Source: Rhodospirillales bacterium BBD 1991-14
Lineage (GTDB): Bacteria > Pseudomonadota > Alphaproteobacteria > Kiloniellales > Kiloniellaceae
DNA: 64,000 nt
Assembly: GCA_001657395.1 (NCBI GenBank)
Contig: LYSY01000005.1
Span: forward strand, 1 to 64,000
Direction: 5' to 3'
Shown here: positions 16,981 to 35,448 of the stretch, piece by piece
How the letters are laid out: every line of letters begins with the position of its first letter
Position numbering within the stretch: position 1 is the first letter of the stretch
Notes under the pieces: generated by a model
The model's database searches: none
The model's input: the letters and a program-made list of their open reading frames with translations, nothing else
What the model was told of the DNA's origin: nothing
Position numbers and translations under genes: made by a program

Positions 16981-17009
16981 GATATAAAGAACGTTCAGGG
17001 AGTGGGACC

Positions 17010-18044
17010 ATGACTAAGATCTTCAAGCCGCTCATCGCGGCCTTAGCTTGCGCGTTGGCCTTGCCAGGGGCAGCCGCCGCCGTGAGCCCAACGGTCGAAA
17101 AGATCAAGGAGCGGGGAACACTGCTCTGCAGCGGCCATAACGGCAGCTACTTCGGCTTCGTCGAAGTGAACGACAAGAATGAGTGGAAAGGGCTCGACAT
17201 CGATCTTTGCCGGGCAATGACCACGGCAATCCTCGGGGACCCGACGAAGGCACAGATCATTCCGCTCAGTTGGGCGCAACGCTTCCCCGCCCTCCAGTCC
17301 GGCGACGTGGACATCATCATCAAGGCAACCGGCTGGACCATGGGGCGGGACACGGAACTGGGTCTGCAGTTCAGCCTGCCGTACTTTTTCGGAGGTACAC
17401 AGCTGATGGCCCATGGCGATCTCGGCGTAACCGAAGCCAAGGACCTGGAAGGCGGAACTGTCTGCGTCGAAGCCGGCACGACGATCGAGCGTATCGTCGC
17501 CGACTACATGAAGACAATTGACGTTGAGCACACCATGGTCTCTTACGAGAAGGCGGCCGAGCTGCGTTCCGCCTATCTCGCCAACCGCTGTGACGCCTTT
17601 GCCGGCTGGGGCCCGAACCTGGCGGTGCTGCGGGCGACCGAGATTGAGAACCCTGAGTCCCACGTGATCCTGGACGACCAGTTGTCCAGCGAGCCGATCG
17701 CAGCCGCCATGCGCCAGGGCGACGAAGAGTTCGTTGATGTCACCAACTGGATGCTGGCCGCCCTGCTCCTGGCGGAGGAGCACAATGTGACCCAGGCCAA
17801 TGTCGACGAGATGGCCGCAAACCCGCCAAACCCGACGGTGGCGCGGCTGCTTGGGGCGACACCGGGCATCGGCGAGCGCCTCGGGCTGCGCGAGACCTGG
17901 GCACGCGAGATGATCGCAGCGGTCGGCAACTTTGCCGAGATCTACGATCGGAATCTGGGCGCGAACTCTCCCTACAAACTGGACCGCGGTTTGAACAATC
18001 TATGGAGTCACGGCGGCGTTCTTTACGCCCCCATCCTGGACTGA
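17010..18044 (+). CDS. aapJ: general L-amino acid ABC transporter, periplasmic binding protein (AapJ/BztA-like)
   Basis: A 344-residue periplasmic solute-binding protein (SBP family 3) with a Sec signal peptide ending near AAAA at residue 23. GLDIDLCRAMTTAILGD and ALQSGDVDIIIKATGWTMGRD are typical of the Aap/Bzt group, which binds polar L-amino acids. The protein is of normal length. It has its own promoter and is followed by a strong hairpin, the usual arrangement for making the binding protein in excess over the permeases. The matching ATPase gene is not in this operon but at 34696. Confidence 0.9.
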   Translation: MTKIFKPLIAALACALALPGAAAAVSPTVEKIKERGTLLCSGHNGSYFGFVEVNDKNEWKGLDIDLCRAMTTAILGDPTKAQIIPLSWAQRFPALQSGDVDIIIKATGWTMGRDTELGLQFSLPYFFGGTQLMAHGDLGVTEAKDLEGGTVCVEAGTTIERIVADYMKTIDVEHTMVSYEKAAELRSAYLANRCDAFAGWGPNLAVLRATEIENPESHVILDDQLSSEPIAAAMRQGDEEFVDVTNWMLAALLLAEEHNVTQANVDEMAANPPNPTVARLLGATPGIGERLGLRETWAREMIAAVGNFAEIYDRNLGANSPYKLDRGLNNLWSHGGVLYAPILD

Positions 18045-18054
18045 TGCGCTGTAA

Positions 18055-18095
18055 GCGTCAGGCCACGACAGATCGCGTGGCCTGACGCCCTTCTT
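18055..18095 (+). terminator. hairpin between aapJ and aapQ (attenuating terminator or mRNA stabiliser)
   Basis: GCGTCAGGCCACG and CGTGGCCTGACGC form a perfect 13-bp stem with an 8-nt loop, followed by CCTTCTT. Its place, 11 bp after the binding-protein gene, suggests partial termination or 3'-end protection giving more aapJ mRNA than aapQM mRNA. Confidence 0.75.
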
Positions 18096-18118
18096 GGCTT
18101 CCGGATCCGGAGGGCGCC

Positions 18119-19255
18119 ATGTCGACCGCTGACCTTAAACGGCGCGCGAATACGCGCAAGCTGATCATACAGTCTGTCTTCCTGATCGCTGTCGTGTTTC
18201 TCGTCTGGGGCGCGGTCTCCAGCGCCCAGACCAATCTTGCCAACCTCGGCATCACAAGCGGCTTTGCCTTTCTGGACCGATCCACCGGTTGGGGCTACTC
18301 CTTCTCCCTCATCGAGCGATCGATCGACGACAGCTACCTGCGCACCCTGACGATCGGTTTCATGAACACCCTGTTCTTGGGCGTCGTCTCCATAGTCCTG
18401 GCCACCATCATCGGGTTTGCCGTCGGGACGGCACGGGATGCACGAAACCTTGCCGTCAACAGCGCGGCAACCATCTACGTACAGGTCTTCAGGAACGTAC
18501 CGCTCATCCTGCAGCTCGTGTTCTGGTATGCGGTGCTGATCCATATGCCCGGTCCGCGTCAGTCTTACGCCTTCCTGGATCTCGTATTTCTCTCAAACCG
18601 CGGCATGATGGTACCGGGGCTCAATACCACCCCCGGTCTCGCCGTGGTAATGATGATCGTTGCTCTGCTTGCGGCCGCCGCGAGTTGGCGGCTCACCAAG
18701 TTCACCCCGGGAATGAAGATACTGACCTGGTCTTTGGGGATGGTCGTCTTTTGTGGTGCCGCGACCCTGGCCTTTCTGCCCGAAGGTGAGAGCCTGTTCT
18801 CGCTGCCGGAACTGAAGGGTTTGCGCTTCGTCGGCGGCATTACCGTTTCGATCGAACTGATCGCCATGGTCATCGGCATCGTTCTCTACGGCTCTGCCTA
18901 CATTGCCGAGGTGGTGCGCGGGGGACTTCAGGAGGTTCCCAAGGGGCTGATCGAAGCAGGGCAGGCTGTCGGTCTGAGCCGCGGTGCAATCTGGTCAAGG
19001 ATCAAGATGCCGATGGCCTTGCGGACCATCGTGCCACCGCTCGGCAACCAATGGATCTTTCTGATGAAAGCAACGACCATCGGTGTGGCCATCGGGTTCA
19101 GCGATCTCTTTATGCTGGTCTCCACCTCCATCACCCAGTCCGGTCAGACCTTGGAGCTGATTGGTCTGCTCATGGCTGCTTTCCTTCTGATCAACTTCAC
19201 TCTGGCGCAGTTCATCAACTTCCTGAACGCGCGCCTGCAGCTGAAGGCGCACTGA
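18119..19255 (+). CDS. aapQ: general L-amino acid ABC transporter permease (AapQ-like)
   Basis: A 378-residue inner-membrane permease with a long N-terminal loop between the first helix and the conserved core, typical of AapQ/BztB. The contact loop is EVVRGGLQEVPKGLIEAGQAVGL, and the amino-acid permease motif continues with IVPPLGNQWIFLMKATTIG. The ATG at 18119 has GGAGGGCG upstream. The gene is one base from aapM, so the two permeases are co-translated. It needs an ATPase supplied from outside the operon. Confidence 0.9.
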   Translation: MSTADLKRRANTRKLIIQSVFLIAVVFLVWGAVSSAQTNLANLGITSGFAFLDRSTGWGYSFSLIERSIDDSYLRTLTIGFMNTLFLGVVSIVLATIIGFAVGTARDARNLAVNSAATIYVQVFRNVPLILQLVFWYAVLIHMPGPRQSYAFLDLVFLSNRGMMVPGLNTTPGLAVVMMIVALLAAAASWRLTKFTPGMKILTWSLGMVVFCGAATLAFLPEGESLFSLPELKGLRFVGGITVSIELIAMVIGIVLYGSAYIAEVVRGGLQEVPKGLIEAGQAVGLSRGAIWSRIKMPMALRTIVPPLGNQWIFLMKATTIGVAIGFSDLFMLVSTSITQSGQTLELIGLLMAAFLLINFTLAQFINFLNARLQLKAH

Positions 19256-19256
19256 A

Positions 19257-20339
19257 ATGGCGACGATAGCACTGAGCCAACCAGGCCGCCTGAGCGCTAT
19301 GACCCGCACACTGAAGAAGCGGGCGTTCCCCAACGCCAGTGCGTCGGTCCTGTCGATTGTCGTCTTCGGGCTGCTCGGCTACCTCGCGTGGCTGATGGTC
19401 GATTGGGCCATTGTAAGCGCGGTTTGGACCGCGGAGAACGTCGAGGCCTGCCGCGAGGCGGCGGGAGCCTGCTGGTCGGTCATCGATGCGCGCCACCGTC
19501 TGATCCTCTTCGGCCTCTATCCCTTTGAGCAGCACTGGCGTTCGACACTGGCCTGCCTGGCGATTGTCCTGACCGTTGCGTTGTCCTGCGCGCCGATGCT
19601 TTGGACAGCAAAACGCCTCTCCAGCCTCTGGATCGTGGGGTTCGCCACCTACTATCTGCTGATGGAAGGAAGCCTGCTGGGCCTTGTGCAGGTGACCACC
19701 GATCAGTGGGGCGGCCTGTCTCTCACGCTCTTCCTGTTTTCCTCTGTCGTCCTCATCGGCATGCCGATGGGTCTTGGCCTCGCTCTGGCGCGCCGCTCAT
19801 CGATGCCGGTCATCCGTGCCGGCGCTTCCTTGCTGATCGATTTCATCCGCTCCCTGCCCCTGCTGACGACCCTCTTCACGGCCGCGGTCGTCTTCCCGAT
19901 CTTGCTGCCGGACTGGCTGCAGGGAGACAAGATCTGGCGCGTCATCATCGCCTTCGCTCTTTTCTTTGCCTGCTACCAGGCCGAGGTTCTGCGCGGCGGT
20001 TTCCAGGCCATCCCCAAGGGCCAGTTCGAGGCCGGCAAGGCACTGGGATTGGGGTACTGGACAATCCTCGGCCGGATCGTACTGCCCCAGGTCTTCCGGC
20101 ACGCCCTGCCCGGAACGATCAACATGGTGGTGGTGACTTTCAAGGAAACCGCCATCGTCATCATCATCGGCTTCTTCGATATCCTGGCGTCGGCCAATGC
20201 GGCCTTCGGCACCGGCGAATGGGCGCCCTATTACCTGGAGGTCTACGCCTTCGTGGGCCTGATCTACTGGGCCTTCATCTTCTCGCTCGGCCAATATGGC
20301 GAGTATCTCAAGCGCCGGATGACTGTGGCGAAACACTAG
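19257..20339 (+). CDS. aapM: general L-amino acid ABC transporter permease (AapM-like)
   Basis: A 360-residue permease, partner of AapQ. The contact loop is EVLRGGFQAIPKGQFEAGKALGL and the later segment FRHALPGTINMVVVTFKET is typical of the family. The central extra-cytoplasmic region is shorter than in AapQ, as expected. The ATG at 19257 follows the aapQ stop by one base. It converges with the MBL gene 6 bp away, with no space for a separate terminator. Confidence 0.9.
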   Translation: MATIALSQPGRLSAMTRTLKKRAFPNASASVLSIVVFGLLGYLAWLMVDWAIVSAVWTAENVEACREAAGACWSVIDARHRLILFGLYPFEQHWRSTLACLAIVLTVALSCAPMLWTAKRLSSLWIVGFATYYLLMEGSLLGLVQVTTDQWGGLSLTLFLFSSVVLIGMPMGLGLALARRSSMPVIRAGASLLIDFIRSLPLLTTLFTAAVVFPILLPDWLQGDKIWRVIIAFALFFACYQAEVLRGGFQAIPKGQFEAGKALGLGYWTILGRIVLPQVFRHALPGTINMVVVTFKETAIVIIIGFFDILASANAAFGTGEWAPYYLEVYAFVGLIYWAFIFSLGQYGEYLKRRMTVAKH

Positions 20340-20345
20340 AGCAGA

Positions 20346-21224
20346 TCAGAACTTGTTGATCGGAACCTTCAGCACGACATCGCCGTTGCTGTCCGCGGGC
20401 AGGTGTCCTGCCCGCATGTTCACCTGCAGCGAGGGAATGATCAGCCTCGGCATGCTCAACTGGGCATCGCGGGCCTCCCGCAGGGCGACGAAATCCCCGC
20501 GCGAGATGCCGTTGCCGACATGGATGTTGTGCCGCTTTTGCTCCAGCACCGTCGTCTCCCAGGCGATGTCGCGCCCGCCGGGACCATAGTCGTGACACAT
20601 GAACAGACGCATCTCGTCCGGCAGGGCCAGAACCCGCATGATTGAATCGTAGAGCATCCCCGCATCGCCGCCGGGAAAGTCCGCCCGCGCAGAACCGCCA
20701 TCCGGCATGAACAGCGTATCACCGACGAAAGCGGCGTTCCCCATGACATGGGTCATGCAGGCCGGCGTATGGCCGGGTGTCAGCATTGCAAAGGCCTGCA
20801 TACCGCCAATCCTGTAGGTATCGCCGCCCTTCAGCAGGACGTCGAACTGCGATCCGTCACGTTCAAACTCAGTGCCTTCATTGAACACCTTGGCGAAGGT
20901 TTCCTGCACCACCGTGATCTTTTCACTCACCGCGATCTTCCCGCCCAGCCTGCGCTGAAGGTAGGGCGCAGCGGAGAGGTGATCGGCGTGCATGTGCGTT
21001 TCGATCAGCCACTCGACGGAAAGGCCGTTCTGATCGACGAAAGCGGCAATCTTCTCCGCGCCGTCAAAGGCGATGCGCCCTGCCGCATAGTCGAGGTCCA
21101 GAACGGAATCGATCACCGCGCAAACCCGGCTATCGGGATCCTTCACGACATAGCTGATTGTGTTGGACGCAGGATCGAAGAACGCGACGACCTCCGGCGT
21201 GACGTTCATGTCAGGTAGGTTCAT
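20346..21224 (-). CDS. MBL-fold hydrolase, persulfide dioxygenase (Blh/ETHE1)-like
   Basis: A 292-residue metallo-beta-lactamase-fold protein. The metal motif is THMHADH at residues 76-82 (His77, His79, Asp81, His82), with later ligands in MLTPGHTPACM and GDTLFMPDGGSARADFPGG. The closest group is the Blh-type persulfide dioxygenases, which oxidise glutathione or protein persulfide to sulfite. The nearby rhodanese (26416) and C-S lyase-like gene (21917) support a sulfane-sulfur role. It is the last gene of a three-gene minus operon (C-S lyase, VOC, MBL). Function is inferred from family and context. Confidence 0.8.
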   Translation of the reverse strand: MNLPDMNVTPEVVAFFDPASNTISYVVKDPDSRVCAVIDSVLDLDYAAGRIAFDGAEKIAAFVDQNGLSVEWLIETHMHADHLSAAPYLQRRLGGKIAVSEKITVVQETFAKVFNEGTEFERDGSQFDVLLKGGDTYRIGGMQAFAMLTPGHTPACMTHVMGNAAFVGDTLFMPDGGSARADFPGGDAGMLYDSIMRVLALPDEMRLFMCHDYGPGGRDIAWETTVLEQKRHNIHVGNGISRGDFVALREARDAQLSMPRLIIPSLQVNMRAGHLPADSNGDVVLKVPINKF

Positions 21225-21265: not shown

Positions 21266-21901
21266 TCAGTCCAGCGTTACGGTTCCCTTTGGACTGTTGA
21301 GGACAAAGGCCAGCCCTTGCGGCCCCTCTTCGACCTCCGCCAGGTGATCGATCTGCAGCGCCGCCAGCATACCGCGCAGCCTAGCCGGCTCCGGATGGCT
21401 CAGGACGATCTTGTCGAGGGTGACTCCGAGATCCTGCTGGCCCATGCTCGGATGGGCTCCGGGGGACCATTCGATGAAAGCCGGCAACAATCCGCCCTCC
21501 GGCAGGTGCCCGTCCGCCGGCACCGTCAGGCGCCAGGACCGCTCCCCGCGCTTGAACGGCACCACTTCACCGAGATCAACAGGGCTGGCCGCAACGACGG
21601 CATCCAGATCATCCGTGTTCACCACCCAGCATAAGGCCCTTGGGCGCTCTGCCAGCTTTCTCCGTGTGGCAGGCTCGTCAAGGGTGAACCAGCGGGCCCG
21701 TCCAGGTTCGGGGGCCTCCGGGTCGATGGAGAGGATCTCCAGGAAACTCTCGTTGCCGGCCTGCATCACGCAGTTGTGCGTGCTCATGGCGTCATGCTTT
21801 CCGCCGCGCGGCACTTCGACGCCCAGAGCCTCGGACAGGGCCGCAACCCCATGCTCGAGCGTCTCCGCGCCGATGGCGAAGTGGTCGATCCGGTGTCTCA
21901 T
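21266..21901 (-). CDS. VOC-superfamily protein (glyoxalase-like domain)
   Basis: About 211 residues beginning MRHRIDHFAIGAETLEHGVA, the usual start of a glyoxalase-like (Glyoxalase_3) domain, with paired beta-alpha-beta units and SFLEILSIDPEAPEP in the first half. An ATG five codons upstream (21916) is the alternative start. These proteins are a mixed group of metal-dependent or binding proteins; no reaction can be assigned. It lies between the PLP enzyme (15 bp upstream) and the MBL gene, so it probably takes part in the same sulfur-compound pathway. Confidence 0.75.
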   Translation of the reverse strand: MRHRIDHFAIGAETLEHGVAALSEALGVEVPRGGKHDAMSTHNCVMQAGNESFLEILSIDPEAPEPGRARWFTLDEPATRRKLAERPRALCWVVNTDDLDAVVAASPVDLGEVVPFKRGERSWRLTVPADGHLPEGGLLPAFIEWSPGAHPSMGQQDLGVTLDKIVLSHPEPARLRGMLAALQIDHLAEVEEGPQGLAFVLNSPKGTVTLD

Positions 21902-21916
21902 GCCCGCAGCTCCCAT

Positions 21917-23092
21917 TCACGTGTTCAGATGTGTGAGAGCGGCGGCGATATCATCGATCAGCGACCCGACATCTTCGTTTCCAATGCTGAAACGCACGAG
22001 GCAGCCCTCCTCGGTCCATGGCCTGGCGGTGCGGTTCGGCCGCACCGGCAGGACCAGACTTTCGAAGCCGCCCCAACTGACACCGACGCCGAACATGGTG
22101 AGCGCATCGACGAAGGCGTGCAGCCGAGCCTCCTCACAGGGTTTGAACAGAACGCTGAAGAGCCCCGCCGCGCCGGAAAAGTCGCGCCGCCAGTTCTCGT
22201 GCCCGGGACAGCCCGCAAATGCCGGGTGCAGAACCCTGAGGACCTGGGGCTGCGCCTCCAGCCACTGGGCAACGGCCAAACCGGCGCTGTGGGCGTGCTT
22301 CATCCGCATCTCCAGCGTCCGCAGTCCCCGCAACGCCAGGAACACATCCTGGGAACCGGCCTTATCGCCGAAAGCAAGGGTCATCCTGCGCATCCGGTCA
22401 TAGGTCGCTTCGTTACACACGATGAACCCGATCATGGCGTCGGCATGTCCGCAGATGTACTTCGATCCCGAATGCGCCACGACGTCGACACCCAGACGCA
22501 GCGGTTGGCAGAAGACCGGCGTCGCCCAGGTTCCGTCGATAATGGAAATCGCGCCATGGGCCCGCGCGGCCTGCGTGATCGCGGGGATATCCGGCACCTC
22601 AAAGGTGCCCGATCCCGGCGCCTCGAACACGACGGCGGCGGTATTGGCCCGCATGAGTTCAGAAACACCCTCGCCCATCATGGAATCGAAGTAGCTGACT
22701 TCAACGCCGTAACGGACCAGCACATTGTCGCAGAACCCGCGCGTCGGTTCGTAGACATTGTCCGCCACAAGCACATGACTGCCCGCTTGCGCCGCCGCCA
22801 TGATGGCCAGCGTTACAGCGGTGAGGCCGGCCGATACGGTGATGCACCCGTGCCCGCCGTCGAGCTTGGCCATCATGTCTTCGAGTTCGAAGCTGACCGG
22901 ATTCCCATAACGGCCGTAGTACAGCGTGCGCTGTTTATAGCGCGCGGCGCGGGCGGCCTGGAACTCCGCCAACGTATCGAAGAGCAGGGTTGAACTCTGA
23001 TAGATTGGGAGATTGACCGAGCGGCCGCTGCCCGCCGGACCGCGGCCCAGATGTGCAAGCGCGTTGGCGAGACAATCTTTCCCTGAAGGCAT
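21917..23092 (-). CDS. cystathionine beta-lyase/gamma-family PLP enzyme (C-S lyase-like)
   Basis: A 391-residue Cys/Met-metabolism PLP enzyme, counting from MPSGKDCLAN at 23092. A longer frame to 23203 exists, but its extra 37 residues are unlike the family. YGRYGNPVSFELEDMMAKL, the substrate/PLP segment SAGLTAVTLAIMA and the PLP lysine in VVAHSGSKYICGHAD are visible. The pattern is nearest MetC-type beta-lyases, which cleave C-S bonds of cystathionine, cystine or S-alkylcysteines to pyruvate, ammonia and a thiol or persulfide. It is divergent from the BisC-like gene, and the gap between them carries the shared operator motif. Confidence 0.85.
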   Translation of the reverse strand: MPSGKDCLANALAHLGRGPAGSGRSVNLPIYQSSTLLFDTLAEFQAARAARYKQRTLYYGRYGNPVSFELEDMMAKLDGGHGCITVSAGLTAVTLAIMAAAQAGSHVLVADNVYEPTRGFCDNVLVRYGVEVSYFDSMMGEGVSELMRANTAAVVFEAPGSGTFEVPDIPAITQAARAHGAISIIDGTWATPVFCQPLRLGVDVVAHSGSKYICGHADAMIGFIVCNEATYDRMRRMTLAFGDKAGSQDVFLALRGLRTLEMRMKHAHSAGLAVAQWLEAQPQVLRVLHPAFAGCPGHENWRRDFSGAAGLFSVLFKPCEEARLHAFVDALTMFGVGVSWGGFESLVLPVRPNRTARPWTEEGCLVRFSIGNEDVGSLIDDIAAALTHLNT

Positions 23093-23176
23093 AAGCTGCT
23101 CACTTGTAAGTCTTCGTATTGAGTGATGACAGCCCTTCATCGACGTGTCAATATTCAATACTACCATGCCATATTT

Positions 23177-23191
23177 CAGCACAATTATCGA
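23177..23191. promoter_or_regulatory. shared regulon motif, copy at the lyase/BisC divergent gap
   Basis: CAGCACAATTATCGA, preceded by CATATTT, ends directly at the ATG of the BisC-like gene. It matches CAGAACAACTGTATC (16966) and CAGAACAATTATCTC (26845) in the core CAGMACAAYTRT. The overlap with the translation start is compatible with repression. Confidence 0.55.
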
Positions 23192-25516
23192 ATGGACGAT
23201 CACGACGCGGTTGAGCGCTTGCTCCTGACCTCAAGCCACTGGGGCCCCGGGCTGCTGGACCTGTCGGGCGGACGCCTCGTGTCCGTCCGGCCGCATCCGG
23301 GCGACCTGGAGCCTTCGCGGATCAACGAAAACATCCCGGAAGGGCTCCACGGCAGCGCCCGTGTGCGTCAGCCCGCGGTCCGGCAGAGCTATCTGAGGCA
23401 CGGCCCCCGCGGCAGCACCGCTGAACGGGGTGCGGAGCCCTTTGTCGAGGTTACCTGGGAGACGGCGCTGGACCTGGTCTCACGGGAGTTGAACCGGGTC
23501 CGCAGCCAGCATGGCAACGAGGCGATCTTCGCCGGCTCCTACGGCTGGGCAAGTGCCGGGCGCTTCCACCATGCGCAAAGCCAGTTGAAACGATTCCTCA
23601 ATGCGGCCGGCGGCTTTGTAAGGTCTGAAGGCAACTACAGTTACAATGCGGCACTGGTTCTGATGCCGCATATCCTCGGCAACTTCCGCGACCATGTGAG
23701 ACAGGCGACCCGTTGGTCCACCGTCGCGCGCGAGGGCCGGCTGGTCGTGATGTTCGGCGGTATTCCCTTACGCAATGCCCAGGTTTCGGGCGGGGGCGTC
23801 GGCCGCCATCGCCTGCGCGACGAACTGACGGCCTGCGCAGAGGCGGGAGTCGAGTTCGTCAATCTCAGCCCGCTCCGCAGCGATGCCGCGGATACCTTGA
23901 ACGCGGAGTGGCTGCCGCCGCGGCCAGGCTCCGACACCGCTGTCATGATGGGCCTGGCCCACACCTTGTTGACCGAGGGCCTGTACGATGCGGCTTTCCT
24001 GTCCCGCTACACCGTCGGCTTCGACACGCTCTGCGCTTATCTGCGCGGCGATGTGGACGGTGTGGAAAAGGACGCCCACTGGGCAGCCGAGCAATCCGGG
24101 CTGGCAGCGGAGCGGCTGCAAAGGCTGGCCCGGCAGATGGCATCGGGGCGTACCCTCATCTGTACGGCGGTCGGCCTTCAGCGCGCCGACCACGGCGAAC
24201 AACCGCTCTGGATGACTGTTGCCCTGGCCGCCATGCTGGGTCAGATCGGCCTGGCGGGCGGCGGCTTCGGCATAGGCTACGGCGGGGACGCGAGCATCGG
24301 TACGATGGACCGGCCTTTCGGATGGCCGTCGTTTCCCCAGGGGACCAACCCGGTCGAGGTCTTCGTGCCCGTCGCCATGATCTCGGAGATGCTGCTGCAT
24401 CCCGGCGAGGCTTACGACTATGACGGACGGCGCCTGGTCTTTCCGGACATACGCATGGTCTGGTGGGCCGGCGGCAACCCCTTTCACCACCACCAGGATC
24501 TCAATCGACTTCGACAGGCGTTTCAGCGGCCGGAAACCGTTGTCGTCAACGAAATCTCCTGGACCGCAACGGCACGCCACGCCGACATCGTGTTGCCCGT
24601 TGCCGCGCCCCAGGAACGCACGGACTTCGGCGCCGGCACACAGGACAGCGCCCTGATTCCCATGCCGAAGGCGGTTGACCCTCCCGGCGCGGCCCGCATC
24701 GAGTTCGAGATCTTCGCCGATCTGGAGCGGCGTCTGCTGCACGGCACCCCCTTCAGCCGCGGTATGACCGCGGAGGAGTGGCAACTGGAGATGTGGGCCG
24801 CGATGAAGCAGCGGGCCGCTGCCGAGGACATAGACCTGCCGGAGTGGCATGACTTCCTCACCGGCGACATCATTCATCTTGAAGACCCTGCGCCGGAAAC
24901 CGTCTTCCTTTCAGCGTTCCGCGAAGACCCGGACGCAAATCCACTTGATACGCCCAGCGGGAAGATAGAACTCGCCTCTGAAGCCATTGCTGCCTTCGGT
25001 TATGACGACTGCCCCGGCCATCCGGCCTGGCTGCCGCCGCGGGATTGGGGCACCCGCGCGGCGAACGCGTATCCGCTGCACCTTCTCTCCGGTCAGCCGG
25101 AAACCCGGCTCCACAGCCAGTACGACAACGGTGCGTTCAGTGTGAGCCGCAAGGTCCAGGGCCGCGAGCCGATCCTGATCAGCCCGGCGGATGCCACCGC
25201 GCGCGGCATTGCAGGGGGCGATGTCGTCATGGTGCTGAATGCCCGCGGGCGCTGTCTGGCCGGCGCTGTGGTGACCGAGGACATACGCCAGGGAACCGTC
25301 TTCCTCTGGACTGGAGCGTGGTATGATCCCGACCTGTCCGACCCTCATCATCTCGACCGGCACGGCAACCCCAACGTGCTGACCCACGACCTTCGCACAT
25401 CCCGCCTGTCTCAAGGTCCGGCGGCCCAGTCGTCCTTCGTGGAAGTCAGGAAGCACGAAGGCCCCCTGCCAGAGGTCGAGGCCTTCAGTCCCTGGCTGCT
25501 GAGGATTGAAACATGA
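23192..25516 (+). CDS. molybdopterin oxidoreductase, biotin/methionine sulfoxide reductase (BisC/TorA)-like
   Basis: About 774 residues from MDDHDAV; the upstream frame to 23123 is unlikely because the ATG at 23192 fits the family N-terminus. There is no twin-arginine signal and no N-terminal [4Fe-4S] cysteine motif, as in cytoplasmic BisC. The Mo-ligand serine is Ser121 in YGWASAGRFHHAQSQ. Other family segments are SWTATARHADIVLPVAAPQE and HLLSGQPETRLHSQYDNG. The DMSO-reductase family reduces S-oxides or N-oxides. In this context a cysteine- or methionine-type sulfoxide is the likeliest substrate, but this is not shown by sequence. Confidence 0.88.
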   Translation: MDDHDAVERLLLTSSHWGPGLLDLSGGRLVSVRPHPGDLEPSRINENIPEGLHGSARVRQPAVRQSYLRHGPRGSTAERGAEPFVEVTWETALDLVSRELNRVRSQHGNEAIFAGSYGWASAGRFHHAQSQLKRFLNAAGGFVRSEGNYSYNAALVLMPHILGNFRDHVRQATRWSTVAREGRLVVMFGGIPLRNAQVSGGGVGRHRLRDELTACAEAGVEFVNLSPLRSDAADTLNAEWLPPRPGSDTAVMMGLAHTLLTEGLYDAAFLSRYTVGFDTLCAYLRGDVDGVEKDAHWAAEQSGLAAERLQRLARQMASGRTLICTAVGLQRADHGEQPLWMTVALAAMLGQIGLAGGGFGIGYGGDASIGTMDRPFGWPSFPQGTNPVEVFVPVAMISEMLLHPGEAYDYDGRRLVFPDIRMVWWAGGNPFHHHQDLNRLRQAFQRPETVVVNEISWTATARHADIVLPVAAPQERTDFGAGTQDSALIPMPKAVDPPGAARIEFEIFADLERRLLHGTPFSRGMTAEEWQLEMWAAMKQRAAAEDIDLPEWHDFLTGDIIHLEDPAPETVFLSAFREDPDANPLDTPSGKIELASEAIAAFGYDDCPGHPAWLPPRDWGTRAANAYPLHLLSGQPETRLHSQYDNGAFSVSRKVQGREPILISPADATARGIAGGDVVMVLNARGRCLAGAVVTEDIRQGTVFLWTGAWYDPDLSDPHHLDRHGNPNVLTHDLRTSRLSQGPAAQSSFVEVRKHEGPLPEVEAFSPWLLRIET

Positions 25517-26820: not shown

Positions 26821-26844
26821 CTCCGTGTCCTTTGTATTGATATA

Positions 26845-26859: not shown

Positions 26860-26982
26860 ATATATTGACACAAATGAGATTCTTGTTCAAGGTTGTGGCG
26901 GTGCGTGGCGGCAGAGCGGCCGCGCCTGCGTGAGGCGATTCATTGGTGAGTTGGGCAGCTGAGATCAGGGGCAGCTGAAGTC

Positions 26983-28271: not shown

Positions 28272-30359
28272 ATGACGGAAGCGCAGGTTCGTGTCGGCGT
28301 CGATATCGGGGGAACCTTCACGGACGTTGCGCTCGAACACGCCGGCGGCATGGCGACCTGCAAGGTGCTGACGAACTATTCCCAGCCCGAGCAGGCGATC
28401 CTCGACGGCATCGAGAAGGCTGCAGGCGAAGCCGGCATCGCCGCCGCGGAGATCAGTCAGGTCATACACGGCACCACCCTTGTCACTAACGCTCTCATTG
28501 AACGTCGCGGGGCGAAACTGGCCTTCGTTACGACAGAGGGTTTTCGCGATGTCGTGGAGATGCGCTCGGAAAACCGTTTCGAGCAGTACGATCTGAACCT
28601 GGAACTGCCCAAGCCCCTGGTCGCGCGCCAGCACCGCTACACCCTCAACGAACGAGTGGCTGCCGAGGGAGCGGTTCTGCGCCCGCTCGACCCATCCGAG
28701 CTTGAACGCCTGGTCGAGGCGATACTGGCCGGCGGCTACGAGGCGGTGGCAATCGGCCTCATCCACGCCTATGCCAATCCCACCCATGAACAGCAGGTTG
28801 CCCAGGCCCTGCGCCGCGCGGCGCCGAAGCTCTCACTCTCGCTTTCCTCCGTGATCTCACCGCAGATGCGCGAGTTCGAGCGCTTCAACACAGTCATCGC
28901 AAATGCCTATGTGCAGCCGATGGTCTCGGATTACCTGGGTCGCCTCGTTGCCCGTCTGCGCGAACAACGCATCACTGCACCGGTCTTCATGATGCATTCC
29001 GGCGGCGGCCTGATCTCTGTGGAGACGGCTGCCGAACAGCCGGTTCGCCTGCTCGAGTCCGGACCCGCAGGCGGTGCCATCTTCGCTGCCGACTTTGCTA
29101 CGGCCCATAGCCTGGAAAAGGTCATGTCCTTCGACATGGGCGGCACGACCGCCAAGATCTGCCTGATCGAAGACGGCGTACCCAAGACCGCAAACACCTT
29201 TGAGGTTGCGCGGACCTATCGCTTCAAAAAGGGCTCGGGCATGCCCGTCTCCACGCCAGTCGTCGAGATGGTCGAGATCGGCGCCGGCGGCGGCTCCATC
29301 GCCCATGTCGACGGCATGGGACAGATCCGTGTCGGCCCGCGTAGCGCCGCCTCGGAGCCGGGGCCCGCCTGCTACCAGCGCGGCGGCGAGAAACCGACCG
29401 TGACCGACGCCAACCTGATGCTGGGACGGCTCGATCCGGACAACTTCGCCGGCGGAGCGATACCCTTGTCGAAGGCGCTGTCCGAGACCGCCTTGAAGAC
29501 CGGGCTCTCCGTGCAAACCGGCCTCGAGCCCGACGAGGCGGCCTTCGGTGTCACGGAGATGGTCGATGAAAACATGGCCAACGCGGCGCGTGTTCATACG
29601 GTCGAGAACGGCCGCGATGTCGAGGCTTTCACGATGATTGCCTTCGGTGGCGGCGCACCCCTGCATGCCTGCCGCCTCTGCGAAAAGCTGGGTGTCGCCG
29701 AGCTGATCATTCCACCGGCCGCCGGCGTCGGGTCCGCTGTTGGTTTTCTGAAGGCGCCTTTCTCCTACGAAGCCTCAAAGGGCCTTTTCCAGCGCCTGGA
29801 CCGCTTCGACAGTGCCGCGGTCAATGCCGCCCTTACAGCCCTGGAGGCGGAAGCCAGGGGATTCGTCGCCGCCGGGGCGGAGAATGCGGTGACCGAGACG
29901 AAGCTGACCGCAATGATGCGATACGCCGGCCAAGGCTGGGAGATACCCGTGGTGCTGCCCTATCGCCCCTTCACCGAGGCGGGACTTGCCGAATTGCGGT
30001 CTGCCTTCGAGGATGCTTACCGCACCCTCTTCGGCCGCCTGATCGACGGACTGCAGATCGAGGTAACCAACTGGTCGGTCACCGTCGCCTCGCTTGTGCC
30101 CAGACAGCCTGGCGTCGAGCGCATTCATGCGGGCCACCCCGTCGCCCCCAACGGGATACGCCGGTTCTACGACGCGGCGCGGCGTGAAACTGTCGAGGCC
30201 GACGAAATTGCACGTTCAGAGCTCGCGGCCGGCATGATGGTCAATGGCCCCGCGGTTGTCGTGGAGGACGAAACAACGACCATCGTCACCTCCGGTTTTA
30301 CGGTGACCGGCCAGAATGACGGATCGCTGCTTCTGCAGAGAAAGGAGGTGGCGCAATGA
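28272..30359 (+). CDS. hyuA: hydantoinase/oxoprolinase family protein, subunit A (HyuA)
   Basis: A 695-residue ATP-binding subunit. The N-terminal phosphate loop is GVDIGGTFTDV at residues 9-19, an ASKHA-type motif; a second nucleotide motif is SFDMGGTTAKI, and EIGAGGGSIAHVD lies near 340. The ATG at 28272 has GGAGAAGCAGG upstream. HyuA/HyuB-type enzymes hydrolyse cyclic amides (5-oxoproline, N-methylhydantoin, related lactams) at the cost of ATP; some relatives carboxylate ketones or acetone. 5-Oxoprolinase is also known to open 2-oxothiazolidine-4-carboxylate, which is relevant to the sulfur genes upstream. It overlaps hyuB by ATGA. Confidence 0.9.
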   Translation: MTEAQVRVGVDIGGTFTDVALEHAGGMATCKVLTNYSQPEQAILDGIEKAAGEAGIAAAEISQVIHGTTLVTNALIERRGAKLAFVTTEGFRDVVEMRSENRFEQYDLNLELPKPLVARQHRYTLNERVAAEGAVLRPLDPSELERLVEAILAGGYEAVAIGLIHAYANPTHEQQVAQALRRAAPKLSLSLSSVISPQMREFERFNTVIANAYVQPMVSDYLGRLVARLREQRITAPVFMMHSGGGLISVETAAEQPVRLLESGPAGGAIFAADFATAHSLEKVMSFDMGGTTAKICLIEDGVPKTANTFEVARTYRFKKGSGMPVSTPVVEMVEIGAGGGSIAHVDGMGQIRVGPRSAASEPGPACYQRGGEKPTVTDANLMLGRLDPDNFAGGAIPLSKALSETALKTGLSVQTGLEPDEAAFGVTEMVDENMANAARVHTVENGRDVEAFTMIAFGGGAPLHACRLCEKLGVAELIIPPAAGVGSAVGFLKAPFSYEASKGLFQRLDRFDSAAVNAALTALEAEARGFVAAGAENAVTETKLTAMMRYAGQGWEIPVVLPYRPFTEAGLAELRSAFEDAYRTLFGRLIDGLQIEVTNWSVTVASLVPRQPGVERIHAGHPVAPNGIRRFYDAARRETVEADEIARSELAAGMMVNGPAVVVEDETTTIVTSGFTVTGQNDGSLLLQRKEVAQ

Positions 30360-32005
30360 GTATCGCATCCATCGACTATCAGATCATGTGGAGCCGCCTG
30401 ATCGCGGTGGTCGAGGAACAGGCCACAACCCTGATCCGTACTGCGTTCTCGACATCTGTGCGCGAGGCCGGCGACCTTTCGGCGGGCCTCTTCGATCTTC
30501 GCGGCAGAATGATGGCGCAGGCGGTAACCGGCACACCCGGCCACGTCAACGCCATGGCGGAAAGCGTGCTCCACTTCATCGCCGAGATCGGCCCCGAGAA
30601 CATCCACGAGGGCGACGTCTATCTGACCAACGACCCCTGGAAGGGCACCGGCCACCTTCACGACATCACCGTGGTGTCACCCGCTTTCCGCAAGGGCCGC
30701 CATGTGGGCTTCTTCGCCTGCACGGCGCACGTCGTCGACATCGGCGGCCGCGGCTTCGGCCCGGATGCAAACGACGTCTACGAAGAAGGCCTATTGATAC
30801 CGATCACCAAGCTTTCCGACCGCGGAACGATCTCAGCCGAGGTTATCAAGTTCATCCGGGCCAATGTCCGGGCACCGGACGCGGTTGTCGGCGACCTCTA
30901 CTCTCTTGCCGCCTGCAACGCGGCGGGAGACCGCCGCCTTCAGGAGATGATGACCGAGTTTCACATCGACGCGTTGGAGGGCCTGTCGGACTTCATCATC
31001 GACACCAGCCGCGAAGCCACCCGCGCCTGTATCGATGAACTGCCATCCGGCGTGTACCGCAACGAAATGCAGGTCGACGGCTACGATGTACCGGTCCTGA
31101 TGAAGGTGGCGGTCGAAGTCAAGGGCGACCGCCTGATCGCCGATTTCGAGGGCACCAGCGGGCTCAGCCGCTTCGGGGTCAATGTGCCCATGGTCTACAC
31201 CCGGGCCTATGCCTGCTACGGCCTCAAGTGCGCCATCGCGCCTGAGGTGCCGAACAACACCGGCTCGCTCGAACCCTTCGAGATAACGGCGCCGGAGGGT
31301 TGCATCCTCAACGCCCGGCGCCCTGCCCCGGTCTCCGTTCGGCACGTTCTCGGGCACCTTGTCCCGGATGTTGCCCTGGGCGCTCTGCACAGGTGTCTGC
31401 CCGGCACCGTGCCGGCGGAAGGCTCCAGCGCGCTCTGGAACATCCAGATCAGCGCCGGTCCGGTCGATGCCGGCTCGAACCTGCCCGACGCGCAACTACT
31501 GATGTTCAACTCCGGAGGAACCGGTGCGCGTCCGGGTTCGGACGGCCTCTCCGCCACCGCCTTTCCGTCCGGCGTCAAGACCATGAGTGTCGAGGCCACC
31601 GAGCACGTGGGCCCGATCATCGTCTGGCGCAAGGACCTGCGCGAGGGCTCCGGCGGTGCCGGAGCGCGCCGCGGCGGCCTCGGCCAGACCATCGAGATCG
31701 AGCCCCGCGACGGTTATGAGTTCCACTTCAATGCCATGTTCGACCGCATCGAGAACCCGGCACGCGGCCGCAACGGCGGGCGTGCAGGGGCGGCCGGATC
31801 CGTGGCCCTGTCGGACGGCACCAGCCTGCGCGGCAAGGGCCGCCAGAAGGTACCAAACGGCGCGCGCCTCGTGCTCAAACTGCCCGGTGGCGGGGGTTAC
31901 GGCGACCCCGCCGAGCGCCCTCACGACGAGGTCCGGGCGGATCTGGCGGCAGGCTACATCACGCCGGAGCAAGCCAGGGCCGACTACGGGCTTGAAGAAG
32001 ACTGA
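30356..32005 (+). CDS. hyuB: hydantoinase/oxoprolinase family protein, subunit B (HyuB)
   Basis: A 549-residue subunit of the same ATP-dependent cyclic-amidase family. TAFSTSVREAGDLSAGLFD near residue 30, GDVYLTNDPWKGTGHLHD near 85 and the Gly-rich tail LKLPGGGGYGDPAERP are characteristic. The ATG overlaps the hyuA stop, as expected for partners made in equal amounts. The cyclic substrate cannot be read from the sequence. Placement after an FAD amine oxidase suggests that ring opening follows or prepares an oxidation step. Confidence 0.9.
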   Translation: MSIASIDYQIMWSRLIAVVEEQATTLIRTAFSTSVREAGDLSAGLFDLRGRMMAQAVTGTPGHVNAMAESVLHFIAEIGPENIHEGDVYLTNDPWKGTGHLHDITVVSPAFRKGRHVGFFACTAHVVDIGGRGFGPDANDVYEEGLLIPITKLSDRGTISAEVIKFIRANVRAPDAVVGDLYSLAACNAAGDRRLQEMMTEFHIDALEGLSDFIIDTSREATRACIDELPSGVYRNEMQVDGYDVPVLMKVAVEVKGDRLIADFEGTSGLSRFGVNVPMVYTRAYACYGLKCAIAPEVPNNTGSLEPFEITAPEGCILNARRPAPVSVRHVLGHLVPDVALGALHRCLPGTVPAEGSSALWNIQISAGPVDAGSNLPDAQLLMFNSGGTGARPGSDGLSATAFPSGVKTMSVEATEHVGPIIVWRKDLREGSGGAGARRGGLGQTIEIEPRDGYEFHFNAMFDRIENPARGRNGGRAGAAGSVALSDGTSLRGKGRQKVPNGARLVLKLPGGGGYGDPAERPHDEVRADLAAGYITPEQARADYGLEED

Positions 32006-32020: not shown

Positions 32021-32773
32021 ATGGCCAAAGCCCCCCTCGCCCTGGTGACAGGCAGCGCCCAAGGAATCGGCTTCGCCTGTGCCGAAGCACTTGCTGAGGA
32101 CGGGGCACAGGTGATCCTGAGCGACATCAACGCCGAAGGCGCGAAGGCAGCGGCCGCAAGACTGGGCAATGGATCGACTGCGATTGCCTGCGACATGGGC
32201 GATCCTGTTCAGATTGCGGCGATGTTCGATAAGGTGGAGGCCGACTTCGGACCGGTCTCCGTCCTCGTCAACAACGCCGGCATCGCGATGCCCGGGGCGT
32301 TTCTGGAAACCTCGCTTGCCGACTTTCAACGGGTCATCGATGTCAACCTGACCGGCAGCTTCGTCGCGCTCCAGCGGGCCGCCAAGGCCATGGTGGCGCA
32401 TGAGATCGAAGGGGCGGTCGTCAACATGTCCTCCATCAACGCCGTCGTCTCGATCCCCTCAATCACCGCCTATTGCGCCAGCAAAGGCGGCGTGATGCAG
32501 ATGACCAAGGCCACCGCCCTTGCCCTGGCGCCGTACAACATCCGGGTTAATGCGGTGGGGCCGGGCTCGATCGATACCGAAATGATGGCCGGGGTAAACG
32601 CCGACCCCGAAGCCATGAAGATGGTGATGTCCCGCACGCCGCTGAAGCGGGTCGGCACGGCCCGCGAGATCGGCGACGTGGTGGCGTTTCTTGCCAGTAG
32701 CAAGGCCAGCTACATCACCGGTGAGACGATCTACGTCGACGGCGGACGGCTCGGGATGAATTACACCTGCTGA
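32021..32773 (+). CDS. short-chain dehydrogenase/reductase
   Basis: A 250-residue classical SDR. The cofactor motif is TGSAQGIGFACAEAL at residues 10-24, the structural motif NNAG near 83, and the catalytic residues Ser and Tyr-x-x-x-Lys are in MSSINAV and YCASKGG. DINAEGAKAA after the second strand has an acidic residue that favours NAD(H). It probably oxidises a hydroxy acid or alcohol intermediate. It lies 15 bp after hyuB and 9 bp before the CoA ligase. Confidence 0.9.
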   Translation: MAKAPLALVTGSAQGIGFACAEALAEDGAQVILSDINAEGAKAAAARLGNGSTAIACDMGDPVQIAAMFDKVEADFGPVSVLVNNAGIAMPGAFLETSLADFQRVIDVNLTGSFVALQRAAKAMVAHEIEGAVVNMSSINAVVSIPSITAYCASKGGVMQMTKATALALAPYNIRVNAVGPGSIDTEMMAGVNADPEAMKMVMSRTPLKRVGTAREIGDVVAFLASSKASYITGETIYVDGGRLGMNYTC

Positions 32774-32782
32774 GATAGGGCC

Positions 32783-34699
32783 ATGGAAACGCGCTACTAC
32801 GACACCTACGCAAGCTGGAAGGCCGACCCGGAAGCCTTCTGGGCGGAGGCTGCCAAGGAAATCAACTGGTTCACGCCGCCAACACGGACCTTCAACCCCG
32901 ATGACGGCGTCTATGGCCGCTGGTTCGAAGGGGCGACCTGCAATACCTGCTACAACTGCATCGACCGCCACGTCGAAGCCGGTCACGGCGACCGCAAGGC
33001 GCTGTTCTATGACAGCCCGGTAACCGGCCAGCGGCGGGCCTACACCTTTGCGGAGATGCAGATCGAGGTCGGCGCCCTGGCCGCGGTGCTGCGGGCGCAG
33101 GGACTCGACAAGGGCGACCGTGTCATCGTTTATATGCCCATGGTGCCTCAGGCGATCTTTGCCATGCTGGCGGCCGCCCGGCTGGGCGCGATCCACTCGG
33201 TCGTCTTCGGCGGATTTGCGGCAAGGGAGCTGGCGACGCGCATCGATGATGCGAAACCGAAACTCATTCTCTCCGCATCCTGCGGGATCGAAACCAACCG
33301 CATCGTTCCCTACAAGCCGCTGTTGGACGAAGCCATCGCGCTTGCCGAGTCAAAGCCGCAGCGCTGCATCATCCTGCAGCGGAAGGAACACCGTTGCACG
33401 CTGACGTCGCAACGGGATCTCGACTACGAAGAGGCCGTCAAACCCGCCATTGCGACCGGCCAGAAAACCGAGTGCGTGCCGGTCGCGGCGACCGACCCCC
33501 TCTATATCCTCTATACATCAGGTACGACCGGCCAACCCAAAGGAGTCGTGCGCGACAACGGCGGCCACATGGTGGCATTGAAATGGACCATGGAGCATCA
33601 CTACGGGGTGAAGCCCGGGGAGGTCTTCTGGGCCGCCTCGGACGTTGGCTGGGTGGTCGGCCACTCCTACATCTGTTACGGCCCGCTGCTGCACGGCTGC
33701 GGGACGGTGCTCTACGAAGGCAAGCCGGTCGGAACGCCGGACGCTGGCGCGTTCTGGCGGGTCATTCAGGACAACGGGGTGGCCGCCCTCTTCACCGCAC
33801 CGACGGCGTTCCGCGCCGTGAAGAAGGAGGACCCGAAGGGCGCGCTGGTCGCAGACTATGACCTCAGCACCTTCCGGACGCTCTTCCTGGCCGGCGAGCG
33901 TGCCGACCCCGATACGATTCGCTGGGCGGAGGAAAAACTGGACCGCCCGGTGATCGATCACTGGTGGCAGACCGAAACCGGATGGCCGATGGCCGGAAAC
34001 CCTGTCGGTCTCGGTCAGCTCCCGGTCAAGCCTGGCTCCCCCGGCGTGGCAATGCCGGGCTTCGACATCCAGGTGCTCGACGACGCCGGAAAGCCGGTCG
34101 AACCCGGAACACTCGGCAACATCGTCTGCAAGCTGCCGCTACCGCCCTCTTCCTTCCCGACGCTCTGGAACGCGGAGGCGCGGTTCCGCAAAGCCTACTT
34201 CGAGGAGTTCCCTGGATACTACGCCACTTCCGATGCCGGGATCGTCGACGAAGACGGCTACGTCTTCATCATGGCGCGCACTGACGACATCATCAACGTC
34301 GCCGGCCACCGTCTGTCCACCGGTGCGATGGAGGAGGTGCTGTCCAGTCACGAGGACATTGCCGAATGCGCTGTGATCGGCGTGGCCGACTCGATGAAGG
34401 GGCAACTGCCCCTGGGCTTCTTCGTGCCCAATGACGGTGTCGAGCGCGACGAGGCCGAGCTGGAGAAGGAGCTGGTTGCTCTTGTGCGCGCCAGGATCGG
34501 CCCTGTCGCCGCCTTCAAAACCGCCATAGAGGTGAAGCGCCTGCCCAAGACACGCTCCGGCAAGGTCTTGCGCGGAACGATGCAGAAGATTGCCGACGCG
34601 GAAGACTGGAAGATGCCGGCGGCCATCGACGACCCGGAGATACTGAAAGAGATCTCGGTCGCGCTCACGGCGCGAGGCTTTGGGAGGATGAACTCATGA
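32783..34699 (+). CDS. acyl-CoA synthetase, propionyl-CoA/acetyl-CoA synthetase (PrpE)-like
   Basis: A 638-residue AMP-forming ligase. The P-loop is [15 protein letters not shown] near residue 247, the adenine-binding segment WWQTETGWP near 395, and the A10 lysine [11 protein letters not shown] near 590. [13 protein letters not shown] at the N-terminus is typical of PrpE. It activates a short carboxylate (propionate, acetate, perhaps acrylate or 3-hydroxypropionate) to a CoA ester. It is last but one in the 27-35 kb operon and overlaps aapP by ATGA. It suggests that the pathway ends in a C2-C4 acid. Confidence 0.9.
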
Positions 34700-35448
34700 T
34701 GGCTTCGGATGAAGCGCCCGCAGTGCTCATGCGCGGCGTGAACAAGTTCTACGGCTCATTCCATGCGCTCAAGGACATCAACCTCAGCGTCACCAAGGGC
34801 GAGCGCATCGTGATCTGCGGGCCCTCCGGCTCGGGCAAGTCGACCATGATCCGCTGCATCAACCAGCTTGAGGAGCACCAGTCCGGCAACATTGAGATCA
34901 TGGGCCACCAGATCGACGCCGACGCGCCGAACATCGAGGAGATGCGCCGGGAGGTGGGCATGGTGTTCCAGCACTTCAACCTTTTCCCGCATATGACCAT
35001 CCTGGAGAACTGTACGCTGGCGCCGACGATTGCCCGTAAGACACCGTTGGCCGAGGCCGAAGCGGAGGCGATGAAGTATCTGGAGAAGGTACAGATCGCC
35101 AACCAGGCCCTGAAGTACCCCGGACAGCTCTCCGGCGGCCAGCAGCAGCGCGTGGCGATCGCCCGCGCGCTCTGCATGCACCCGGAGATCCTGCTGTTCG
35201 ACGAGCCGACATCTGCCCTTGATCCAGAGATGATCGGCGAAGTTCTGGACGTCATGGTGACGCTGGCCAACGAGGGCATGACCATGCTCTGCGTGACCCA
35301 TGAAATGGGCTTCGCGAGGAAGGTCGCTGATCGGGTGATCTTTATGGACGGAGGTGAGATCATCGAGGAGAACGATCCGGATGAGTTCTTCACCAATCCG
35401 GGGAGCGAGCGGACGAAGACCTTCCTGGACCAGGTCCTCAGTCACTAG
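34696..35448 (+). CDS. aapP: general L-amino acid ABC transporter ATPase (AapP-like)
   Basis: A 250-residue polar amino-acid ABC ATPase. Walker A is GPSGSGKST, the signature [15 protein letters not shown], Walker [14 protein letters not shown] and the H-loop [11 protein letters not shown]. MITNFKxxNLFPHM-like [14 protein letters not shown] is typical of AapP/GlnQ. The aapJQM operon 14 kb upstream has no ATPase, and this operon has no permease, so the two must complete each other. The start overlaps the CoA ligase stop. A 3' fragment of this gene with 237 bp of matching DNA lies at 60622-60858. Confidence 0.93.

Follow-up and report, generated by a model that had tools for sequence, protein, structure and literature searches.

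A conserved, apparently co-regulated gene block in Rhodospirillales bacterium BBD 1991-14 that may import and degrade a sulfur-containing cyclic imino acid

Here we describe a block of about 15 genes, spanning positions 17010-35448 of a 64,000-nucleotide stretch of contig LYSY01000005.1 from Rhodospirillales bacterium BBD 1991-14 (hereafter the window), in which an amino-acid ATP-binding cassette (ABC) importer stands together with a BisC-type molybdenum reductase, a pyridoxal 5'-phosphate (PLP) dependent C-S lyase, a rhodanese, a metallo-beta-lactamase fold (MBL) protein, a vicinal oxygen chelate (VOC) protein, a flavin adenine dinucleotide (FAD) amine oxidase (DAO), a two-subunit HyuAB enzyme, a short-chain dehydrogenase/reductase (SDR), and a coenzyme A (CoA) ligase. 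An initial annotation had put the block forward as a catabolic system for a sulfur-containing (cyclic or sulfoxide) amino acid. Protein families were assigned using profile models, with scores compared to curated cut-offs, and all families listed in that annotation were recovered (Table 1); the periplasmic binding protein (SBP) gene starts at 17010 and not at 16990, and an IclR-family regulator gene has to be added to the list.

Table 1. Genes and operator sites of the block, with positions in the window, strand, and best-matching profile or score.
Feature	Position	Strand	Profile, score or remark
Operator (palindrome), 5' of importer operon	16961..16986	.	30.6 bits
Periplasmic binding protein (SBP), AapJ-like superfamily	17010..18044	+	SBP_bac_3; own clade
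Amino-acid ABC permease Q	18119..19255	+	BPD_transp_1
Amino-acid ABC permease M	19257..20339	+	BPD_transp_1; start 19257 or 19299
Persulfide-dioxygenase-like MBL (Blh C-terminal part)	20346..21224	-	NF040641, 361 of 625 bits
VOC (Glyoxalase_3) protein	21266..21916	-	PF13468
PLP C-S beta-lyase, cystathionine beta-lyase family	21917..23092	-	TIGR01324, 410 bits, over cut-off
Operator in divergent PLP/BisC spacer	23143..23185	-	held-out match, 28.5 bits
BisC-type molybdenum S/N-oxide reductase, cytoplasmic	23192..25516	+	TIGR00509, 869 bits, cut-off 1017.55
IclR-family regulator, presumed for the operators	25572..26372	+	HTH_IclR, IclR_C
Rhodanese	26416..26820	-	PF00581; called start 26871, likely start 26820
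Operator in divergent rhodanese/DAO spacer	26831..26873	+	56.2 bits
FAD amine oxidase (DAO), L-pipecolate-oxidase-like	26983..28254	+	AmaA model NF050086, 464 of 600 bits
HyuA, ATP-dependent hydantoinase/lactamase-type subunit A	28272..30359	+	PF01968, PF05378
HyuB, subunit B	30356..32005	+	PF02538
SDR dehydrogenase	32021..32773	+	PF13561
Propionyl/acetyl-CoA synthetase-like (PrpE-like) ligase	32783..34699	+	NF007815, 727 of 955 bits
ABC ATPase (AapP/GlnQ-like) of importer	34696..35448	+	NF007027, 306 bits

The importer is complete but split, with the SBP and permease genes forming the left end of the block and the ATPase gene standing last in the catabolic operon at the right end. Overlaps of 4 bp join HyuA to HyuB and PrpE to AapP, and comparison with other loci places the rhodanese and DAO starts probably at 26820 and 26983.

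Conservation of the block was examined by scanning genome contigs for HyuB, which gave 158 relatives; the best 80 were kept and compared with all block proteins at per-gene identity thresholds that we fixed after a first comparison, with no coverage limit. The nearest 55 loci (L004-L058) were taken as the set, and the remaining 25 (L059-L083; Pseudomonas, Burkholderiales and kin), in which no block partner reaches its threshold, as controls. Within the 55 loci, HyuAB is accompanied by the SDR in 49, DAO in 45, IclR in 40, rhodanese in 37, VOC in 33, PLP lyase in 31, BisC in 31, the ATPase in 30, PrpE in 26, and the MBL protein in 11, and these counts are low bounds because many loci end at contig ends or at the 10-kb flanks. 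All eight core genes (BisC, IclR, DAO, HyuA, HyuB, SDR, PLP lyase, and VOC) occur together in 26 loci, and VOC accompanies the PLP lyase in 31 of 31. The first gene 3' of the ATPase falls into 16 different clusters in 19 loci (leaving out L004, where VOC follows the ATPase); the unit is therefore kept while its surroundings are not. An SBP ortholog (E 1e-110; 70-87% identical, two partial) was found in 28 of 31 cluster genomes, and in 25 of these 28 it lies within 5 kb of the fetched locus by coordinates, contig identity resting on matching coordinates. The three genomes without one are two Marinomonas, in which a major facilitator superfamily (MFS) gene adjoins the cluster, and that of L053, whose cluster begins at a contig start.

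A shared operator ties these genes together further. A 43-bp motif trained on the rhodanese/DAO spacers of other loci (29 of 32, with 27 unique sites) scored 56.2 bits in the same spacer of the window, and 28.5 bits in the held-out PLP/BisC spacer, the best of eight shuffled windows being -9.2; among PLP/BisC spacers of other loci, 24 of 25 scored above 0. Scanning both strands of the 55 loci (1.04 Mb) gave 75 distinct sites that score over 10 bits, spread over 41 loci (123 raw matches if both strands of one site are counted), made up of 29 training sites and 46 others. All but two of the latter (44) adjoin block genes, five of them inside called gene starts that we take as start miscalls; the two lie in L042, one in a CaiB-BisC gap and one between an amidase gene and a peptide-type ABC operon. 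The control loci (25 loci, 500 kb) gave 0 sites. Since training required TTGACA, the motif may in part represent a promoter -35 element and not an operator. Upstream of the importer operon the 43-bp motif scores only -9.7, and a related palindrome is found there that by eye has the same half-site (TGTGCTGATATA). A consensus chosen by eye from the upstream regions, that of the window included, was matched with at most eight mismatches in 22 of 31 regions (three being repeats of one locus) and in 0 of 31 shuffled ones (minimum nine), and a position weight matrix built from 20 unique sites of other genomes gave 30.6 bits at 16961-16986, eight shuffled windows reaching at most 9.1. Marinomonas and Vibrio importer upstream regions do not match the palindrome and carry the 43-bp motif. 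Judging from its position and family, the IclR protein presumably binds these operators.

Paracoccus seriniphilus carries the set split over two plasmids. Plasmid p449297 holds VOC, PLP, IclR, rhodanese, DAO, HyuAB, SDR, and PrpE genes with operators of 43.7 and 31.0 bits, and p599725 holds BisC, a ketimine-reductase-family gene, and a complete importer (SBP 57%) with an operator of 23.4 bits just 5' of the reductase-importer operon. Operators on both plasmids confirm the link between the two gene sets. Given the conserved set, the SBP ortholog, and the shared operator, the unit is more than chance, and it almost certainly represents one apparent regulon for import and catabolism. Lack of conservation of the genes as a unit, which the initial annotation had named as a refutation, is clearly contradicted.

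Carriers include roseobacters, Roseibium, Marinomonas, and Vibrio, the gene set being common to many marine bacteria. Close to home it is patchy: a close HyuB is missing from all seven other genomes of the host genus (the single match, in one of them, is 38% identical), a HyuB of 65-66% identity adjoins an SDR of 44-46% in four genomes belonging to a sister genus, and in an even sample of 385 genomes of the class HyuB identity exceeds 66% in none but the own genome. The block was not seen in the neighbourhoods opened for 8 of the other 11 HyuB-holding genomes of that sample. This pattern suggests an accessory island of patchy and, within the class, rare occurrence. The presence of BisC by itself does not mark the block, since homologs occur in 76 of the 385 genomes (E 1e-200) compared to 12 for HyuB, the own genome being counted in both. 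At the end of one contig of genome G331 (L104), BisC (61%), rhodanese (69%), and SDR (70%) homologs lie near EutA-like, M20, and Xaa-Pro-dipeptidase-like genes, surroundings that look like ectoine utilisation and include another PLP lyase; HyuAB, DAO, and the operator are not in that stretch.

The importer offers clues to the class of substrate. With an SBP of family 3, two large permeases, and a GlnQ-type ATPase, it is of the AapJQMP/Bzt kind, and its SBP does not group with general AapJ but forms its own clade, the nearest paralog in the own genome being 40% identical. In a quick tree supported by the SH-like approximate likelihood ratio test (SH-aLRT) only, the block proteins form one clade (99), with P. 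seriniphilus as a weakly supported sister (83). The next relatives in a plasmid collection comprise 20 records (50-59% identical), P. seriniphilus among them, and six others were opened. Their importers neighbour a proline-racemase-family gene and HyuAB (R. jaguaris); sulfatase, dihydrodipicolinate synthase (DHDPS)-like, D-amino-acid-dehydrogenase-like, aldehyde dehydrogenase, and proline-racemase-family genes (Shinella); ketimine-reductase-family, enolase-superfamily, and proC genes (Yoonia); DHDPS-family, FAD oxidoreductase, and aldehyde dehydrogenase genes (Mameliella); an enolase-superfamily gene (Paroceanicella); and a Pseudomonas-type HyuAB cluster (Paracoccus sp. MA). We take most of these clusters to resemble hydroxyproline catabolism. 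They share with the block a same-clade importer and cyclic imino acid enzymes, and differ from it in that BisC, C-S lyase, and rhodanese are not listed (six records, with incomplete gene tables) and in that their regulators are GntR, TetR, or LysR proteins rather than IclR. The P. seriniphilus ketimine-reductase-family protein is nearest to the Delta1-pyrroline/piperideine-2-carboxylate reductase model (220 bits, cut-off 322). Two other genes of that species were not counted to the set, namely a close Tpa, present there only among the loci compared, and an aldehyde dehydrogenase that looks part of a sugar cluster. A structure model of the SBP was poor (predicted local distance difference test, pLDDT, 55) and was not used. 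Because of the SBP clade with its neighbours and the kinship of DAO to pipecolate oxidase, our best guess is that the substrate is a cyclic secondary amino acid. As an observation of its own, two hydroxyproline-like clusters with same-clade importers contain a choline-sulfatase gene (L159:13073-14629, TIGR03417 603 bits, over cut-off; L162:13989-15527), and an O-sulfated imino acid is a candidate substrate of these clusters worth testing.

Two proteins that pass the cut-off of the AmaA (L-pipecolate oxidase) model share 43-45% identity with DAO, which itself remains below that cut-off (464 vs 600 bits); the other paralogs compared share 27-39%, save one host-genome protein discussed below. The block thus has the FAD oxidase and the cyclic imino acid logic of L-pipecolate catabolism in Pseudomonas; unlike that pathway, it has no aldehyde dehydrogenase, with SDR and HyuAB instead and sulfur enzymes added. 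We propose that the SDR turns the imine, or carbinolamine, into a lactam. Variants of the cluster bear on this step, given that xanthine-dehydrogenase-type molybdenum enzymes can convert a cyclic imine to a lactam, and HyuAB would act on such a lactam next. In a metagenome-assembled genome (MAG) of the Hyphomicrobiales (L042, L171), a large subunit of this type and two RidA proteins stand behind an operator (22.1 bits), DAO not being in the stretches read, and in L052 a two-gene molybdenum hydroxylase adjoins the DAO-HyuAB genes. In 21 loci, a gene for RidA, a protein that clears reactive imines, separates PrpE from the ATPase. HyuA and HyuB contain the expected domains and two phosphate motifs, scoring below the NCBIfam cut-offs of the caprolactamase models, and the nearest solved structures to HyuB are N-methylhydantoinase and then hydantoinase entry 6yra (CapAB). 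The block enzyme accordingly resembles CapAB, OplAB, and ATP-dependent hydantoinases in its two subunits, ATP phosphate motifs, and structural neighbours, and differs from them in its scores and in a Lys for Asp after the phosphate-2 motif. Among such enzymes, delta-valerolactam is hydrolysed by OplAB (PMC11033972) and caprolactam by CapAB (PMC8453981), which makes a thia-lactam a reasonable HyuAB substrate.

The PLP lyase keeps the catalytic Lys, Tyr111, Ser-Trp, and Arg372 of MetC in alignment and has Leu where MetC has Tyr238 near the substrate pocket. BisC keeps the Tyr, Trp, and Ser of dimethyl sulfoxide (DMSO) reductase (SYGW and YS in the alignment), which we take to be the active-site Tyr and Trp and the Mo-ligating Ser. 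By eye, the N-terminus of its longest open reading frame shows no twin-arginine (Tat) signal, so it was taken as cytoplasmic. The rhodanese HCASGWRS motif retains the active-site Cys. Together with the thiol-dioxygenase variants described below, the C-S lyase residues, the S/N-oxide reductase, and the rhodanese argue for sulfur in the substrate. The TIGR00509 description states that BisC-type enzymes reduce N-oxides too, so S-oxide activity here is a prediction, and BisC acting on an N-oxide and the PLP enzyme on another amino acid would turn the regulon into one for a sulfur-free nitrogen heterocycle. Some loci do have DAO-HyuAB-SDR without PLP and BisC; the C-S lyase residues, rhodanese, and thiol dioxygenases speak against this alternative, and we regard it as highly improbable. 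The VOC protein has a predicted VOC fold (pLDDT 90), and its model matches 4-hydroxyphenylpyruvate dioxygenase and methylmalonyl-CoA epimerase folds, pointing to no role; six stretches around VOC genes outside the cluster were generic only.

The MBL protein matches positions 139-423 of the Blh profile only, and is no full Blh (sulfur transferase and MBL in one protein). Present in 11 of 55 loci, it is peripheral to the unit. Its rarity speaks against a five-membered, thioproline-type thiazolidine as substrate, from which DAO and SDR would make 2-oxothiazolidine-4-carboxylate; HyuAB would open this to cysteine, from which the PLP enzyme would release sulfide for the rhodanese and the MBL protein. 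The SBP clade suits proline-like rings, sulfane-sulfur genes are present, and there is the precedent of 5-oxoprolinase opening 2-oxothiazolidine-4-carboxylate, invoked in the initial annotation. A HyuA residue adjoining the ATP phosphate site is not that of solved lactamases, which makes this precedent weak; moreover, such a route needs no CoA activation, thiol dioxygenase, or S-oxide reduction, and DAO resembles a six-ring (pipecolate) oxidase, making the thiazolidine quite unlikely.

The fate of the remaining carbon and sulfur is best seen in cluster variants. L004-L006, which belong to the four loci most closely related to the window, have in place of PrpE a relative of 3-mercaptopropionate dioxygenase (L004 copy, E 5e-11) together with a class III CoA-transferase and a crotonase; L007 has the dioxygenase relative and CoA-transferase before its contig ends. 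The Hyphomicrobiales MAG has a second region with operators encoding CaiB (57%), crotonase (48%), a 48% BisC homolog, and a 3-mercaptopropionate dioxygenase match of 202 bits with a site of 9.1 beside its gene. The window holds no such dioxygenase, and the own genome has one weak match (31 bits). In Variovorax, 3-mercaptopropionate passes through Mdo, the class III CoA-transferase Act, and the desulfinase AcdA (PMC6370202). Two cluster variants resemble this route of V. paradoxus TBEA6 in the thiol dioxygenase and class III CoA-transferase; they differ in that AcdA was not identified, Mdo/Act-type genes being absent from the window and a PrpE-like ligase present in 26 of 55 loci. CoA activation of the carbon left, a step of the initial annotation, would be carried out by different enzymes in different lineages. 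The same genes would suit an open-chain substrate, that is an S-carboxyalkyl-cysteine or its S-oxide such as the acrylate adduct S-(2-carboxyethyl)cysteine, on which BisC and the PLP lyase would do the main work while HyuAB merely re-opens the lactam that such compounds form. The dioxygenase relatives, CoA-transferase, and crotonase of the variants, the PrpE-like ligase, and the C-S lyase residues all fit; the conserved pipecolate-oxidase-like DAO (45/55 loci) and the SBP clade of hydroxyproline-like clusters are left unexplained, and we hold both the substrate and this subordinate role of HyuAB to be unlikely.

We consider it about an even chance (roughly 0.5) that the regulon serves the import and breakdown of a cyclic imino acid that contains sulfur and probably enters the cell as the S-oxide. 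The gene set, operator, and families are observed, and from them we infer every step of the route as follows. After uptake by the ABC importer, the cytoplasmic BisC enzyme would reduce the S-oxide to the thioether; the FAD enzyme would form a cyclic imine by oxidizing the C-N bond of the ring; the SDR would convert the hydrated imine to a lactam; HyuAB and ATP would open the lactam to an S-(carboxyalkyl)cysteine; and the PLP lyase would release pyruvate, ammonia, and a mercapto-carboxylic acid. The latter would be desulfurised by the thiol dioxygenase in some lineages and by rhodanese and MBL elsewhere, and its carbon would enter as acyl-CoA via the PrpE-like ligase or the class III CoA-transferase and crotonase. 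The sulfur-containing cyclic amino acid of the initial annotation thus gives the best fit to the SBP clade, DAO kinship, ketimine-reductase gene behind an operator, and thiol-dioxygenase variants, with substrate and reactions predicted from sequence. One candidate is the six-membered, chondrine-type thiomorpholine-3-carboxylate S-oxide, a ring that would fit the oxidase; a C3 mercapto acid would fit the dioxygenase and PrpE, and six- or seven-membered rings or open-chain S-carboxyalkyl-cysteines are possible. Chondrine and cycloalliin occur naturally. Known routes for ergothioneine, biotin, methionine sulfoxide, mercapturate, and S-(2-succino)cysteine were set aside as fitting fewer genes.

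Several observations weigh against the cyclic sulfur imino acid. In the clusters of the SBP relatives, all hydroxyproline-specific models stayed below their cut-offs, and the ketimine-reductase gene behind an operator and the Tpa neighbour come from one record each. Fourteen of the 55 loci have no operator site, including L048, L050, and L056, which hold DAO and HyuAB (most of the 14 are cut, or have HyuAB without the other genes), and the best site before BisC itself in P. seriniphilus scores only -2.6. BisC, rhodanese, PrpE, and MBL are absent from all four Marinomonas loci, and 7 of 15 genomes searched lack an ortholog of the block PLP lyase (E 1e-80) despite having HyuAB. A gene for 3-sulfinopropionyl-CoA desulfination was not identified, VOC has been given no role in the route, and the closest DAO relative outside the cluster is not AmaA but the second host-genome protein (48%), whose gene (L114:9428-10705) adjoins, by N-termini, a 2-hydroxyacid-dehydrogenase-like gene and a branched-chain-type ABC transporter. 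The HyuA reaction is the weakest step: the HyuA motif reads DMGGTTAK (TAK in 77 of 78 called HyuA proteins), and its Lys, directly after the phosphate-2 motif and next to the ATP phosphate site, replaces the Asp of N-methylhydantoinase, CapA, ApcC, and acetone carboxylase. An alpha' subunit of acetophenone carboxylase (Apc) has Lys at the same position (PMC8453981), so a carboxylase-like HyuAB reaction is possible. HyuAB would then be an ATP-dependent carboxylase acting, as in acetophenone degradation, on a ketone that the SDR makes from a sulfur compound, with PrpE activating the product. The gene order HyuA-HyuB-SDR-CoA ligase agrees with this. Against it, N-methylhydantoinase and caprolactamase are the closest relatives of known structure, and the block encodes no subunits beyond A and B where the solved carboxylases have more (PMC8453981); we judge the carboxylase very unlikely.

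Thiomorpholine-3-carboxylate is treated as a mammalian metabolite in one paper (PMC7545470). In openly licensed literature we found no described pathway with this gene set, in line with the initial annotation, and nothing on bacterial catabolism of chondrine or cycloalliin. We hold it to be unlikely, though conceivable, that the block represents a first system for the catabolism of sulfur imino acids of the thiomorpholine type (chondrine/cycloalliin type) and of their S-oxides, in which reduction of the S-oxide would be followed by oxidation of the ring to a thia-lactam, opening of the latter with ATP, and C-S cleavage; in that case roseobacters, Roseibium, Marinomonas, and Vibrio would draw sulfur and nitrogen from such compounds in the sea. 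Marine organic sulfur is known mostly through dimethylsulfoniopropionate (DMSP) and sulfonates; with a conserved, apparently co-regulated system for a cyclic sulfur amino acid, an unnoticed currency between algae or invertebrates and bacteria would come to light, and a HyuAB subfamily hitherto without known reaction would gain a function. The operator and binding protein make the substrate searchable by experiment.

The genes flanking the block were taken as separate, as the conserved unit runs from SBP to AapP. Upstream (4189-16156) are betaine-type genes for an MttB-like methyltransferase, a BCCT transporter, an OpuAC-type binding protein with ABC ATPase, and a GbdR-like regulator; downstream (36524-50215) are genes for a PcaR-like regulator and a hydroquinone 1,2-dioxygenase (PnpD-type), with neighbours that by N-termini resemble hydroquinone catabolism. 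The HyuAB genes of L059-L083 (Pseudomonas and others) belong to a different cluster, in those read with a thiamine diphosphate (ThDP) enzyme, an aminotransferase, an FAD oxidoreductase, or an aldehyde dehydrogenase. In L057 (3041-11647), HyuAB and rhodanese genes adjoin genes that, judged from N-termini, resemble those of the beta-hydroxyaspartate cycle.

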